64,000 bases of DNA from Oscillatoria nigro-viridis PCC 7112 (GTDB taxonomy: Bacteria; Cyanobacteriota; Cyanobacteriia; Cyanobacteriales; Microcoleaceae), in assembly GCF_000317475.1 (NCBI RefSeq), contig NC_019729.1:5842501-5906500 (forward strand). Reading direction: 5' to 3'. Made by a program: the position numbers and the translations under genes. The notes beneath the pieces were generated by a model. The model made no database searches. It saw only the letters and a list, made by a program, of their open reading frames with translations, and was not told the DNA's origin. Shown in pieces: positions 48,794 to 55,182 of this stretch; the stretch's first letter is position 1, and every line of letters begins with the position of its first letter.

Positions 48794-50281
48794 ATGGTAC
48801 TGTTAACTGCAAAAATCTCTGCTAACGAGTTAGCAAATTTGGCTGTAGATTTGATTCGGAAAACAGGTTGCGAGTACGGTGATGTGCGTTTTTGCAGTTA
48901 TCGAAGGCAGAATCTTTACGCGCGCGATCGATCTTTAAGTCAACTGTCAGATAATGTAAGTTCCGGTTTTGGCGTGCGAGTGCTTCTCGACGGCGCTTGG
49001 GGGTTTGCCGCCAGTCACAGCAAAACGCCGGCAGAGGTTGCAAGAATAGTCGCTTTGGCTGTAGAAATCGCTAAAGGCAGCCGCTTGACTCAGAAGGAAC
49101 CGGTGCGGTTGGTGCCTGTGGAAAAATATGTCGATACCTACATTACTCCCATCGCCATCGATCCTTTTTCTGTACCAGTTGCTGAGAAAGCCGAACTGCT
49201 GCTAACTATCAACGAGAAGCTGCTAGCACACGCCGCACAAGGCATCAAAAAAGCTGATTCTTTTTTGCAGTCCAGCCGCGAAGACAAGGTTTTTGCTTCT
49301 ACAGAAGGCTCGCTAATCGAACAAACAATCTACCGCAGCTATGCTGGTTTTGACTGTACTGCAATTGCGGGCGGCGATGCCCAAAGTCGCAGTTACGAAC
49401 GCCCGCCGCTGAATATCGGTTACGAACATATTAATCCCGATGATTTGTTGAGTCAAATCGAAAGAGTTGCCGCTGAAGCTATTGAGAAAGTGGCTGCTCC
49501 CAAACTCCCGGCTGGTATTTGCAAATCGCTGATTCTCAAACCGACAAATTTGTTCTTAACTATTCACGAATCTGTCGGACATCCAACTGAATTAGACCGG
49601 GTTTACGGCTACGAATCTAATTTTGCTGGCACGAGCTTTGCTACTACCGATCATTTAAATAAACTGCAATATGCTGCACCTTGGGTGAATTTTAAGTGCG
49701 ATCGCACTCAGCCGGGCGGTCGCGGTACAATGGGTTACGATGATGAGGGCGTAAAATCACAAGAGTGGTACGTTGTCAAGGATGGAATTTTAGTTGATTA
49801 TCTCACTGACAGAGAGACGGCTTATCGCCTCGGACGCGGTAGCAGCAACGGTTCTGCTTGCGCTGACAGTTGGTCGAGCGTGCCGATGGTGAGAATTCCC
49901 AATTTGGGATTGGAGCCGGGCCCGGATGGCGGCAGCCATACTGCTACTTTAGCGGAGATGATTGCGGATACGGAAGACGGGATTTTAATCGACGGTATGG
50001 GTAGTTATTCGATTGACCAGCAGCGGCGGAATTTTCAATTCGGCGGCGATGCTTTTTGGAAGGTGGAAAAAGGTAAAGTTGTCGGTATGTTGAAGGATGT
50101 AACTTATCAGGCGATGACTACTGATTTCTGGAATCAAATAGATGCGATAGGGCCGGCTTCGGAACGGGTGCAGTGCGGCACGAATATGTGCGGAAAAGGC
50201 GAGCCGATGCAGGTTGCTCAGATGACTCACGCTTGTGTGCCGGTGCGAGTGAGGGATATTCAAATTGGGGGAAATTCTTAA
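48794..50281 (+). CDS. tldD: TldD metalloprotease
   Basis: The 495-residue protein carries the TldD zinc motif HESVGHPTELDR near residue 258, together with the YDDEG segment and the C-terminal GxGxC-like CGTNMCGKGEPM. TldD works with TldE (PmbA) as a heterodimeric protease that degrades unfolded peptides and matures some peptide products such as microcin B17. The partner tldE lies 660 bases downstream, separated by a small two-gene insert and itself split by an intron. ATG at 48794 is the start. Confidence 0.95.
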   Translation: MVLLTAKISANELANLAVDLIRKTGCEYGDVRFCSYRRQNLYARDRSLSQLSDNVSSGFGVRVLLDGAWGFAASHSKTPAEVARIVALAVEIAKGSRLTQKEPVRLVPVEKYVDTYITPIAIDPFSVPVAEKAELLLTINEKLLAHAAQGIKKADSFLQSSREDKVFASTEGSLIEQTIYRSYAGFDCTAIAGGDAQSRSYERPPLNIGYEHINPDDLLSQIERVAAEAIEKVAAPKLPAGICKSLILKPTNLFLTIHESVGHPTELDRVYGYESNFAGTSFATTDHLNKLQYAAPWVNFKCDRTQPGGRGTMGYDDEGVKSQEWYVVKDGILVDYLTDRETAYRLGRGSSNGSACADSWSSVPMVRIPNLGLEPGPDGGSHTATLAEMIADTEDGILIDGMGSYSIDQQRRNFQFGGDAFWKVEKGKVVGMLKDVTYQAMTTDFWNQIDAIGPASERVQCGTNMCGKGEPMQVAQMTHACVPVRVRDIQIGGNS

Positions 50282-50301: not shown

Positions 50302-50643
50302 GTGAAAATTCCAGCGGATGCTATCATACCCGAAGCAAAGTTGACGCGCTATTTACTTGTTCCCAAAGCACAAGATGACAAGTCAAAATTTCTCGCTCAA
50401 GGGGGTTTTAGTCAAGATAACCCAGAAGCTTTGTTAGCAGCCATCCAGTTTTTGATAGCGTCGGCTGAGGCTGTAGAAGATGGTGCTAATGAATTCGGAA
50501 AGTTCTTTCGCGCTGAAGGTGAGCTGCCAGGAGTTAACGGACGTAATTTAGCAGTTGTTACAATTTGGTTGCAGTGGCAAATTGACGGAAGTTTTCATTT
50601 TATTACTCTCAAACCGAAAAAGGAGTCTCGACGTGAAACTTGA
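50302..50643 (+). CDS. DUF6883-like small protein
   Basis: The 113-residue frame starts with GTG at 50302, 20 bases after tldD. The pattern KLTRYLLVPKAQDDKSKFLAQGGFSQDNPEALLAAIQ, then GELPGVNGRNLAVVTIWL and FHFITLKP, matches the short DUF6883 family often found next to DUF4926 genes or at the end of polymorphic toxins. No catalytic set is certain. It overlaps the next gene by 11 bases, so the two are co-translated. A toxin-antitoxin-like role is a hypothesis from family context only. Confidence 0.65.
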   Translation: MKIPADAIIPEAKLTRYLLVPKAQDDKSKFLAQGGFSQDNPEALLAAIQFLIASAEAVEDGANEFGKFFRAEGELPGVNGRNLAVVTIWLQWQIDGSFHFITLKPKKESRRET

Positions 50644-50881
50644 ACTTTACCAGCGTGTAGCATTGTGTCGGGATCTACCGCTATATCAGCTAAAAAAAGG
50701 CGATGTAGCGATGTTAGTCGATCGCGTACCTCACCCAAACGAAGGCGAAGATGGCTGCGTTCTAGAAATATTTAATGCTTTAGGAGAATCGATTTTAGTT
50801 GTGGCTGTCTCCCGTTCTGATGTGGAACTTCTGCGAGCTGATGAAGTGTTAGCAGTTCGCTCTTTAGTACAGGCGAGTTAA
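50633..50881 (+). CDS. DUF4926-like small protein
   Basis: The GTG at 50633 gives 82 residues (VKLELYQRVALCRDLPLYQLKKGDVAMLVDRV...) that follow the DUF4926 plan: a short helix, L-x-x-G-D-V, a five-strand beta region and a final RADEVLAVR. A longer frame from 50555 would run inside the upstream gene and has no family support. The coupled pair sits between tldD and tldE, normally neighbours or co-expressed, so it looks like an insertion into that unit. Confidence 0.65.
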   Translation: MKLELYQRVALCRDLPLYQLKKGDVAMLVDRVPHPNEGEDGCVLEIFNALGESILVVAVSRSDVELLRADEVLAVRSLVQAS

Positions 50882-50941: not shown

Positions 50942-51385
50942 ATGCTCGTAACATCCCCCCCACTTTTAAGTGAAGACCAAGCCTTATCTTTACTAGAAAA
51001 AGCAGTCAAACAATCGGAAGCCGAAGCAGTATTTGTCAGTCTCTCTACTGGCGAAGAATCTCTTTCGAGATTCTCGGAAAATCAAATCAGCCAAAATATT
51101 AGCAAAGCTGTATTTAGCCTGAGCATTACTAGCTATTTCGGCAAGAAAAGCGCCTCTGCATCTGTTACAGAATTTGATGAAGATGCGATCGCCTCCGCAG
51201 TCAAGCGATCGGAAGAATTGGCCAGAATTGCGCCGGCAGACCCCGAATGGATGCCGCTGCTGCCGCCTCAAACCTACGATTTGCGCTCGCCCGCCTTCGA
51301 CGCAGCAACGGCAACTGTATCGCCTCTAGCGCGGGCCAAAATGGTGCAGCAAGGTGCGATTCGTTCAGTCGAAACCGAGAAATTG
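50942..51385 (+). CDS. tldE: TldE/PmbA 5' exon, interrupted by group II intron
   Basis: The frame from ATG 50942 reads as a TldE/PmbA-type protein (LSLSITSYFGKKSASASVTEFDEDAI; ARAKMVQQGAIRSVETEKL) up to codon 148 (TTG at 51383). It then meets intron sequence and a stop at 51416. Joined to the frame at 53961 it gives 447 residues, close to the 450 of E. coli PmbA. TldE lacks the zinc motif and is the non-catalytic partner of TldD. The exact exon boundary is uncertain by a few bases to about 85 bases. Confidence 0.8.
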
Positions 51386-52014
51386 GGGGATGACTGGCTT
51401 CTACAGGGTAATCCATGAGGATTGAGTTCGCACTTTAATCCCTTGTAGATGACAACTTCATAACCTTGCAGGTGAGCGTTAGTATCCTAGAAAACGATAA
51501 GTCCTGCCCCTCAGACGTAGAGGTGAAAGCATATCTCCCACTGTAGAGACTAGCCATCAATCGGTGAAGCGGAGATAAAAGCGGAAAGAGCCACTAGCCT
51601 AAAAGTGGTATCCCGTGAGCAAGTTCCTACGGATAGCAAATGCGAAGTCACTGCCTGAATCACCGTTACGGCGAACCAGCGAAATAAGGCTTTATGCGCT
51701 GGTAGTCCCAAAAGGGCATTAGTACAGGGTGGTATGAGAATTTTGCCCGACATACCTACGTTACCCAAAAACTCGGTGAAGAGGTGACATCCTAACGGAA
51801 CAGACCAATGGTTATGAGGAACGAAGTAACCCACCTGATTACTCTCGAAGAGGTCGAATACTTCGAGCAGTCAGCTAAGACGAAACATCTGGACTTCCAG
51901 GTAACAGGTGGTAGAGATTGAGTCAAAAGCCAACGCCTCACTGCAATGGTGAGGATATGCTAACGGACTTACGGTAATACGGATGGTATAGCTACAAGTA
52001 GCAATGAATATGTT

Positions 52015-53831
52015 ATGAACACGGTAGAAAAACCGATGTATGAATGGAACGATATCAACTGGCGAAAGCTAGAGCGTAACGTTTTAAATTGCAAAAGCGG
52101 ATATATCAAGCGTCTAATCGTGGTGATGTCAAGCTAGTACGCAGACTCCAGAAACTGTTGATAAGTTCTTGGGCAGCAAAAGCATTATCGGTTCGTCGGG
52201 TAACACAAGATAATCAAGGAAAGAAGACGGCAGGCGTGGACGGTGTTAAATCGCTGACCCCAAAGCAACGTCTCGCACTGATAGATAAAATATCATTGGG
52301 TTCAAAGGTTAAGCCAACACGCCGAGTTTGGATACCCAAACCAGGGACAGATGAGGAAAGACCGTTAGGCATACCGACAATGGAAGACCGAGCCTTGCAA
52401 GCGTTAGTCAAACTGGTGTTAGAACCAGAATGGGAAGCGCGATTTGAACCTAACTCATACGGGTTCAGACCAGGACGCTCGTGCCACGATGCAATAGGAG
52501 CAATATTCAGTGCGGTAAGTCAGAAATCAAAATATGTGCTGGATGCCGATATCAGTAAATGCTTCGACCGCATTAACCATGATGTACTTCTCTCAAAATT
52601 AAATACCTATCCTACCCTACGGAGACAAATCCGGGCTTGGTTAAAAGCTGGTGTTATGGATGGAAACAAGCTGTTCCCAACTGATGAAGGGACACCACAG
52701 GGCGGGGTGATTTCACCTCTACTTGCCAATGTCGCCTTACATGGGATTGAGGAATTGATTATGGGTTTAGCCCCAAAATTCGAGATGAGAGACTCTCGTG
52801 GTCATACTTATGGATTACGAGACAAAATCAAATCGATTTCACTGATACGATATGCGGACGATTTCGTAGTTCTCCATGAGGATGTAGAAGTTGTGAAGCT
52901 GTGTAAGGTTGAGATAGAGAAGTGGTTAAGTGACATTGGGTTAGAATTAAAGCCGAGTAAAACAAGATTAGCCCACACCCTGAATAAACTAGATGATGAA
53001 AAACCTGGATTTAACTTTCTAGGATTCAACATCAGGCAGTTTCCAGTAGGAAAACACAACTCAAGTAAGGGAACTAGAGGCACTTTATTGGGCTTTAAAA
53101 CTATTATCAGCCCTAGCAAGGAAAGTCAGAAAAGGCACTACAGAAAAGTTGCGGAAGTAATAAATAAATCGCGTGGGTTAAACCAAGCGACTTTAATAAA
53201 AAATCTCAATCCTATCATTAGGGGTTGGTGTAACTACTTCTCAACAGTCGTCAGCAAGAAAATATTTGATAGGCTGTGGCACTTAGTGGTTTGGAAGCTT
53301 CTCAAATGGGGTCGCCATCGTCATAGGAACAAGGGCAGAGGATGGACACGCCTTAAATACTTCAAAACCGTAGAAGGCAATAACTGGGTGTTCGCAACCG
53401 GAGAGGGTAACAATCCTCTAAAGCTCATACAACATAGTTCCACTGAAATAAAGCGCTATGTAAAAGTAAAAGGGATGGCATCACCCTATGACGGTGACTG
53501 GATATATTGGAGTTCAAGAATGGGAGTACACCCAGAAATACCCGTAAGAGTAGCCAAACTACTCAAGCGACAAAAAGGGAAATGCGCTCACTGCGATAAC
53601 TACTTCAAAGATGGAGATTCGATAGAGGTTGACCACATCGCCCCCAAATCGAAAGGTGGAAAGGAATCGTATGATAATTGGCAGCTACTCCATCGACATT
53701 GCCACGACACAAAGACTGCCAATGATGGCAGTCTTGGTAACAAATCTAGCTGCAAAAGTGCTAAACCTAAGCCACCAGTGGAACCAAGCCTTTGGGCTTG
53801 GGAAAACGATATGTTGGTAATGACGTACTGA
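52015..53831 (+). pseudogene. Intron-encoded RT/maturase/HNH protein with N-terminal frameshift
   Basis: From TTG at 52089 a 580-residue frame carries the reverse transcriptase (YADDFVVL near residue 255; PLGIPTMEDRALQALV; GTPQGGVISPLLANV), domain X (WCNYFSTVVSKKIFDRLWHLV) and an HNH endonuclease (CAHCDNYF near 499, EVDHIAPKSKGG, LLHRHCHDTK). The expected start (MNTVEKPMYEWNDINWRKLERNV) is present from ATG 52015 but in a different frame. A single missing base in the T/A run at about 52082-52088 would join it to KLQKRIYQAS. So the gene is nearly intact with one frameshift, either real inactivation or a sequencing error. Confidence 0.85.
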
Positions 53832-53853
53832 TGACAACAGCCGTTTTATTGAG

Positions 53854-53887
53854 GAGCGGAATGATGGGAAACTATCACGTTCCGTTT
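53854..53887 (+). ncRNA. Group II intron domain V
   Basis: The 34-base hairpin starts GAGCGGAAUG and ends ACGUUCCGUUU, with a GAAA-type tetraloop region and the conserved AGC triad and AC bulge. This matches bacterial/chloroplast-like domain V. It lies 23 bases after the maturase stop, the normal arrangement. It is the catalytic metal-binding element of the ribozyme. Confidence 0.88.
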
Positions 53888-53960
53888 TGGAGAGCAGTGG
53901 AGGAGGCGACTCCTTCACTGACTTTAATCTTGCGCCATTGCCGCACAGGGGGGGGCTCAC

Positions 53961-54860
53961 GGTTCGGGTACTTTGAGCGCTGAGGCGTCGCTGTACGCGA
54001 TCGCCTCGTCAACCGGACTCCGCGCCTGCAACCAGTCTACAGAGGCGGATTTCAGCTTGACTGCTCGCGTTGAAGACGGTTCTAGCTGGGCGAAGAGCAC
54101 TGCTTGGAGTATCAACGAATTGCCGATCGCCCAATTAGCAGAACAAGTGCTCGATCGGGCGATCGCATCTCGCAACCCGCGCCCCATCACTCCCGGCGTT
54201 TATCCGGTAATCTTTGACGGCGCTGCTTTTGCGGGCTTGCTACCGTGGGTGATTTGGGGGCTGGATGCGAGGGCGGCGGATGAGGGGCGATCGTTTATGT
54301 CGATCGCCGATGCAGAGGGAAAACCAGCGGGAAACCGCGCGGGGGAACAACTTTTTAGCCCGTTAGTGCAAGTGCAGCGCGATCCGGCTCATCCTTTGCT
54401 GCGATCGAATACTTTTTTCGGCGACGGATTGAGCAATAACTATTTGGAAATCATCAAAGATGGCGTACCTCAAAGTTTGTCTTATTCCCGCTACTGGGCC
54501 GCACAAAAAGGCAAAGAGGCAAAAGGTGCTTTTTACCCGATCGTGATGACAGGTTCCGACCAAAGTTTAGCAGATTTAATTGCTCAAACCGAGCGCGGAA
54601 TTTTCGTCAGTCGAGCTTGGTACGTGCGCTACGTTAATCCGAAAACATTGGAAGTAACGGGAATGACTCGCGACGGTACTTTTTGGATTGAGGATGGCAA
54701 AATTGCTTATCCGATTAAAAACCTGCGTTTCAATCAAGTTTTACCTGATATGTTGCGCGATGTGGATGCAGTTAGTGCGGTGAAGCGTTACGGCGGTAGT
54801 GTCGTGCCCGGAGTGCGCGTGAAAGCTTTTAATTTCACGAGTATTACTGACAGTTTGTAA
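53961..54860 (+). CDS. tldE: TldE/PmbA 3' exon
   Basis: From GGT at 53961 the frame reads GSGTLSAEASLYAIASSTGLRACNQSTEADFSLTARVED, the segment that directly follows the 5' exon in TldE proteins. It continues to the conserved C-terminal part (FFGDGLSNNYLEIIKDG; GIFVSRAWYVRYVNP; MTRDGTFWIEDGKI) and a TAA at 54858. Standing alone it has no good start, so expression depends on splicing or the gene is broken. The stop codon lies in the first unit of a 97-bp tandem duplication. Confidence 0.85.
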   Translation, partial: GSGTLSAEASLYAIASSTGLRACNQSTEADFSLTARVEDGSSWAKSTAWSINELPIAQLAEQVLDRAIASRNPRPITPGVYPVIFDGAAFAGLLPWVIWGLDARAADEGRSFMSIADAEGKPAGNRAGEQLFSPLVQVQRDPAHPLLRSNTFFGDGLSNNYLEIIKDGVPQSLSYSRYWAAQKGKEAKGAFYPIVMTGSDQSLADLIAQTERGIFVSRAWYVRYVNPKTLEVTGMTRDGTFWIEDGKIAYPIKNLRFNQVLPDMLRDVDAVSAVKRYGGSVVPGVRVKAFNFTSITDSL

Positions 54861-55039
54861 CTCACACATTTCTAACAATCTGTAGGGGCGGGTTTCACAA
54901 ACAATCACAGCCAACAAAGAACAATCTCTCAAACCCGCCCCCACTGACAGTTTGTGACTCACACATTTCTAACAATCTGTAGGGGCGGGTTTCACAAACA
55001 ATCACAGCCAACAAAGAACAATCTCTCAAACCCGCCCCC
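54846..55039. repeat. Two tandem 97-bp copies at the end of tldE
   Basis: Units 54846-54942 and 54943-55039 are nearly identical. Each begins with the last codons of tldE (ACTGACAGTTTG, then TAA in unit 1 and TGA in unit 2) and contains an imperfect inverted repeat with GTAGGGGCGGGTTT and AAACCCGCCCCCAC arms. Stems of this type could act as a terminator after tldE. Confidence 0.85.
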
Positions 55040-55182
55040 ACCCAGATTAATGCGAGTGATTTATCGTGAAGGTAGAGTATTTATTTTGATAGTTAGGATT
55101 AAAACCAGCTATTATAGTCATCAGTCTGGTGTCTGTTGTTAGTAACAATTCCCAATTCCCAATTCCCAATTACCAATTCTCA

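Follow-up and report, generated by a model that had tools for sequence, protein, structure and literature searches.

A group II intron within a tldE-like gene of Oscillatoria nigro-viridis PCC 7112, probably inserted away from a recurrent tnpB target and spliced out

Group II introns lying within genes of the filamentous cyanobacterium Trichodesmium erythraeum are described as being spliced in vivo, 10 out of 17 of them having no open reading frame (ORF) of their own and help in trans having been shown in Escherichia coli (PMC4649490). In Thermosynechococcus elongatus 28 related intron copies are recorded, most of them without an ORF (PMC2882425), and other accounts state that introns seldom exceed ten per genome, that some disrupt essential genes (PMC8919778), that housekeeping genes are seldom interrupted and that introns can lower the level of host messenger RNA (mRNA; PMC6003770). 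The present analysis concerns a gene of the PmbA/TldE family, here called tldE, in Oscillatoria nigro-viridis PCC 7112. It is located at 50942-54860 on the forward strand of a stretch of 64,000 nucleotides (nt) (contig NC_019729.1, positions 5,842,501 to 5,906,500; below referred to as the window, whose numbering is used throughout) and is interrupted by a group II intron. Judging from the sequences compared below, it is very probable that a recently expanding mobile intron has inserted in sense orientation into tldE, off its tnpB site, and is spliced out.

As in Trichodesmium, introns are found in conserved protein genes of a filamentous cyanobacterium, and those without a working protein of their own would need maturases encoded in trans. 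Unlike the system described there, in which splicing was measured and a twintron is included, the tldE locus holds one simple insertion, and its intron frame is shifted rather than absent (PMC4649490). TeI3/TeI4 of T. elongatus likewise represent a cyanobacterial reverse transcriptase (RT) intron that has proliferated within one genome, most copies relying on the proteins of sister copies, but with 28 copies and six families of exon-binding sites (EBS) there as compared to nine near-identical copies here, seven of them with an intact protein (PMC2882425). Ll.LtrB of Lactococcus lactis also splits a protein gene, and its spliced RNA can pair with the joined exons (PMC6003770), while the host in the present case is a chromosomal gene of a protease family. 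The heterodimeric metalloprotease TldD/TldE of E. coli (PMC5810440) resembles the pair in the window in belonging to the PmbA/TldD family and in having the HExxxH motif in one partner, the two genes lying near each other here, but on the NCBIfam models for E. coli TldD and PmbA the window proteins fall far short of the cut-offs. No intron in tldE/pmbA or in this genus was found described in the literature searched by title and abstract; the terms "group II intron" and "tldE" occur once each in PMC10117117.

The genome (8.27 Mb, 6 contigs) contains nine full-length, near-identical copies of the intron among 42 matches of any length. The copy in tldE (L001) is identical to L002 over 2575 nt, L003-L008 have one T more, and L009 has that T but lacks one A; every difference among the nine is thus a one-base length change in a homopolymer (T4/T5 and an A run). 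The flanks differ outside this unit of 2575/2576 nt, except that L002 and L006 have similar tnpB flanks and that a weak target is shared. Since the nine copies share the unit while their flanks differ, the intron was placed at 51354-53928, with splice sites at 51353/51354 and 53928/53929. Joining the exons 50942-51353 and 53929-54860 gives a protein of 447 residues in which codon 138 is divided by the junction; PmbA_TldD Pfam domains are present in both halves, and the exons are intact, without other damage.

An earlier note, made on this DNA from its letters, had proposed a group II intron in tldE and an in-frame spliced product, and both proposals agree with the joined exons, with the predicted domains V and VI and with the RT/maturase/HNH protein. 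Its splice points at 51385 and 53961 do not agree with the ends of the nine copies or with the empty sites of relatives. Residues 138-148 of its first part (GAIRSVETEKL) belong to the intron, and 53929-53960 belongs to the tldE exon and gives A-CAIAAQGGAH, so that its total of 447 residues is correct because two errors of 11 residues cancel. As to the extra bases left at both sides, the 85 at the 5' side are intron and the 30 at the 3' side are true exon. The nested insertion suggested from them is contradicted by the single unit shared by all nine copies and by the tldE flanks, which close without extra bases. The break in the protein frame of the intron had escaped that note.

When comparing the site with the tldE loci of 29 relatives, 24 matched at the DNA level across the junction, 18 of them ungapped and 6 with small gaps, while five gave no DNA match there at the threshold used. 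The joined TldE aligns over all 447 residues in 28 of the relatives and over 441 in one (64-94% identity), and no interrupted tldE was found among these 29 aligned relatives, every frame being continuous through the site. Within the same genus a match to exon 2 of over 560 bits was obtained in 24 of the 28 genomes besides the source genome. No close match was found in three of the 28 (G003, G006 and G024), one of which is only 74% complete, and in G027 tldE is partial and ends at the contig end, which says nothing on its presence. A search of plasmids brought up no more than two matches, both distant and partial, in Calothrix. A second, related type of intron occupies four places in the same genome (L010-L013; 68% over part of the query).

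Group II introns conventionally begin with GUGYG and end with AY, and in their domain VI the branch-point A is bulged and lies 7-8 nt from the 3' end. The ends of the tldE intron, GTGCG...AT as fixed by the nine copies, agree with this convention. A match to RF00029 at 53852-53928 (55.3 bits, gathering score 40) was the only Rfam match at gathering score in the window, and the predicted fold of 53850-53928 has a z-score of -7.1, with none of 200 shuffles being equally stable. Both ribozyme core and ends are identical between the tldE copy and the copies that evidently spread.

Of the 129 loci given, 27 had intron ends that could be established. When the initial 620 nt of the intron were scanned, the best match to the five exon bases preceding the intron in the nine copies was TTTGC at intron position 389. 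When the EBS1 loop was scored against its own intron-binding site (IBS1) in 15 lineages, which remained of the 27 rows after the other copies of the own genome (eight) and four rows repeating included introns had been excluded, the summed score was 61.5 as compared to a permuted mean of 43.5 (standard deviation 3.7), and 0 out of 5000 permutations reached it. The proposed EBS2/IBS2 interaction is fully paired in four of the nine copies, its evidence being weaker than that for EBS1.

The probable recurrent target lies in a different gene. One point of the codons for the motif D-x-N-[AG]-[AS]-x-N-[IVL] is occupied in 9 of the 27 rows (7 of 24 without three duplicates), represented by L002, L006, L051/L081, L055/L088, L086, L089 and L093 from the own genome and from Microcoleus vaginatus HSN003, Symploca, Crocosphaera and Prochloron records, and L058 is inserted some six codons from this point within the motif. 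The own-genome hosts at this point are OrfB_IS605/TnpB genes, and the D-x-N-A-A-x-N-I codons of tnpB-like genes are likely, by this comparison, to be a recurrent homing site of the intron lineage. Both good own-genome matches to the tnpB 5' exon adjoin an intron copy (two weak partial matches were not counted); both own-genome tnpB paralogues of one kind are occupied by the intron. A degenerate pattern for empty tnpB sites gave four places, with two mismatches each. In one separate scoring of candidates three were taken per genome, its counts being lower bounds. The tnpB holding L002 also seems to carry another frame change, upstream of the intron. Between the tldE site and the tnpB site 11 of 17 bases agree, a level attained at 132 of 122,818 window positions, and from this agreement together with tnpB as the recurrent site the tldE copy is best read as an off-site insertion. 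Six of the nine copies lie in sense inside a reading frame, namely those of tldE, of the two tnpB genes and of genes for an FG-GAP/DUF4347 protein, a DUF6923 protein and an Endonuclease_NS protein.

Six members of PF19289 (PmbA/TldD family) were found in the genome: the window pair, L160, L161, L162 and L163. The HExxxH motif is present in window TldD, L162 and L163 and absent in window TldE, L160 and L161 (regular expression for the four paralogues; HESVGH of window TldD and its absence in the joined TldE by eye). With the four paralogues window TldE shares 20-26% identity, and window TldD shares 26-27% with L162/L163; L160 and L161 are labelled TldE-like on the grounds of the missing motif, of length and of mutual similarity (36%), and their best NCBIfam models, PmbA for L160 and TldD for L161, are all below cut-off. 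Against the NCBIfam TldD/PmbA models the window proteins gave 128.9, 28.1 and 34.2 bits (cut-offs 635, 438 and 438), which is below equivalog level, while PmbA_TldD domains in both partners and HExxxH in TldD only give them the make-up of a TldD/TldE pair. A search with exon 2 found only one copy of the same tldE in the genome; that there is no other TldE in it was ruled out by the family model. By these comparisons the tldD-tldE pair of the window is a divergent third set, and tldE, though widely kept judging from the alignments, is not the cell's only TldE-like protein. With two further genes of each type (TldD-like and TldE-like) in the genome, and with the pair divergent, the term "housekeeping" used for this protease subunit in the earlier note is not established. 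The test by which that note would have considered the present copy broken, an intact second tldE, is too strong; remote paralogues do exist, but do not show the gene to be dead.

The intron-encoded protein has RVT_N, RVT_1, GIIM and HNH domains over the Pfam cut-offs and matches TIGR04416 with 337.4 bits (cut-off 300). In seven of the nine copies a frame of 598 codons is intact from an ATG at intron position 682/683, while in the tldE copy and in L002, with T4 instead of T5 at 52082-52085, it stops after 33 codons. In the assembly as read the tldE copy cannot make the full-length protein in the ordinary way, and as this broken frame is accompanied by seven intact ones, splicing of the tldE intron is probably served by a maturase in trans, unless the loss of the T is an error in the sequence. 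T4 in two of the nine copies could reflect a mutation that spread through mobilisation in trans, slippage that arose independently or an error in the sequence.

That the T is missing through an error of sequencing or assembly within a nine-fold repeat, the tldE copy being fully autonomous, is possible if somewhat doubtful. Identical repeats of 2.6 kb are difficult to polish and the differences between copies, all one-base changes in homopolymers, are of the usual error kind, yet the genome is assembled in 6 contigs with 100% completeness and the same T4 occurs at two places. It is very unlikely that the frameshifted copy still yields the protein itself, through -1 slippage at U UUA AAU or from a start at TTG 52089. 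GTT TTA AAT TGC does contain, by eye, an X XXY YYZ heptamer in the right frame, and 580 codons are open from TTG, the match to the RVT_N domain beginning at domain position 16; however, the heptamer arises automatically once TTTTTAAAT loses one T, other homologous frames read straight through here and strong nearby structure was sought by one local fold only. A conserved programmed frameshift is not supported, since the seven other copies and the close relatives, whose homologues hold the frame at the T4/T5 point in the alignment, read through.

With a maturase supplied in trans as the favoured source, the events at the locus may be pictured as follows. A group II intron of RT/maturase/HNH type, spreading presently or very recently in this Microcoleus-type genome, would have entered tldE, the second gene of the divergent pair, in sense orientation at an off-site target where the last tldE bases match EBS1 in part and EBS2 less surely. 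The ribozyme is expected to excise exactly at the two splice sites, giving the usual TldE of 447 residues, the maturase probably being provided by the seven intact copies. Several observations weigh against this. Two of the nine, L004 and L005, run antisense to long frames, of a PAS/histidine kinase and a GTPase respectively, and splicing can rescue neither gene, while L007 has no long frame across it; six sense copies out of eight genic ones are not a significant excess (one-sided binomial 0.14). The IBS1 of tldE fits at 5 of 6 bases with one G-U, as compared to 2.5 to 6 in the same score for other copies, the EBS1 fit is poor in L087 and L086, and local folds of pieces of domain I were no better than shuffles (z -0.45 and -0.81). 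The ratio of non-synonymous to synonymous substitution rates of the tldE exons against the five closest relatives (0.16-0.24 for exon 2, 0.31-0.49 for exon 1) mainly reports on the time before insertion and is no proof of present use.

The insertion could instead be a recent knock-out seen in passing, in which poor splicing or silencing of the mRNA has effectively removed the TldE of the pair, tolerated through the remote TldD/TldE paralogues or through dispensability. The two additional TldD-like and two additional TldE-like genes speak for this, as do the three of 28 same-genus genomes without a close exon 2 match, from which the gene may be dispensable, the antisense copies, by which the intron is seen also to break genes, the broken maturase frame of the tldE copy itself and the reduction of host mRNA by spliced intron RNA reported from tests in Lactococcus and E. 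coli (PMC6003770). Nevertheless a knock-out appears unlikely, considering that ribozyme core and ends are those of copies that evidently spread and that seven maturase frames are intact in the genome; the undamaged tldE exons also argue against it, although weakly, as the insertion is too recent for decay to be expected.

Table 1. Positions (window numbering) of the split tldE, its intron and the neighbouring tldD-like gene
Feature	Position	Strand	Description and basis
tldE exon 1	50942..51353	+	137 codons and first base of codon 138; Pfam PF01523; ungapped alignment to relatives over the junction; empty sites
tldE exon 2	53929..54860	+	Last two bases of codon 138 to stop; Pfam PF19289 and PF19290
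Group II intron, complete	51354..53928	+	2575 nt, GTGCGATT...ACTTTAAT; nine same-ended genome copies and empty sites of relatives
Probable IBS2	51339..51343	+	-15 to -11 of 5' exon; intron CATTA against -11 to -15; 4/5 pairs in tldE
IBS1	51348..51353	+	AGCAAG, last 6 bases of 5' exon; 5/6 bases pair with EBS1, one as G-U
Probable EBS2	51717..51720	+	CATT; scan; conserved GGGCATTAG context in lineage alignment
EBS1	51742..51747	+	TTTGCC, hypervariable domain I loop; best 5-nt match over nine sites; permutation test, 15 lineages
RT/maturase/HNH gene, frameshifted	52036..53831	+	ATG 52036; frame broken at T4 52082-52085; open from TTG 52089, 580 codons
Domain V	53853..53888	+	Rfam match; predicted fold
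Domain VI	53891..53925	+	Bulged A at 53921, eighth base from intron 3' end; predicted fold
tldD-like gene, intact upstream partner	48794..50281	+	495 residues, HESVGH metal motif; three PmbA_TldD Pfam domains over cut-off

Between tldD and tldE, at 50302-50881, two small overlapping frames of 113 and up to 108 residues are found. Downstream of tldE about 90 bases following the stop are directly repeated within 54860-55040 (tttctaacaatctgtaggggcgggtttcacaaac..., by eye).

The tldE insertion is a well-resolved case of a known type of event and leaves the knowledge of group II introns unchanged. The locus offers a clean natural case, with exact ends, close uninterrupted relatives and sister copies both possessing and lacking an intact maturase frame, in a chromosomal host gene outside mobile elements. 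As a tentative suggestion, tldE could be a host gene dependent on another locus, where each TldE of the pair needs the maturase of a sister copy, an early step towards a common trans-acting splicing protein; the T4 form, present at two sites, may also owe its movement to protein provided in trans. The system would lend itself to examining to what extent a gene of a bacterial host can rely on a maturase made elsewhere, and it points to the conserved D-x-N-A-A-x-N-I motif of TnpB as a recurrent homing site of the intron lineage.

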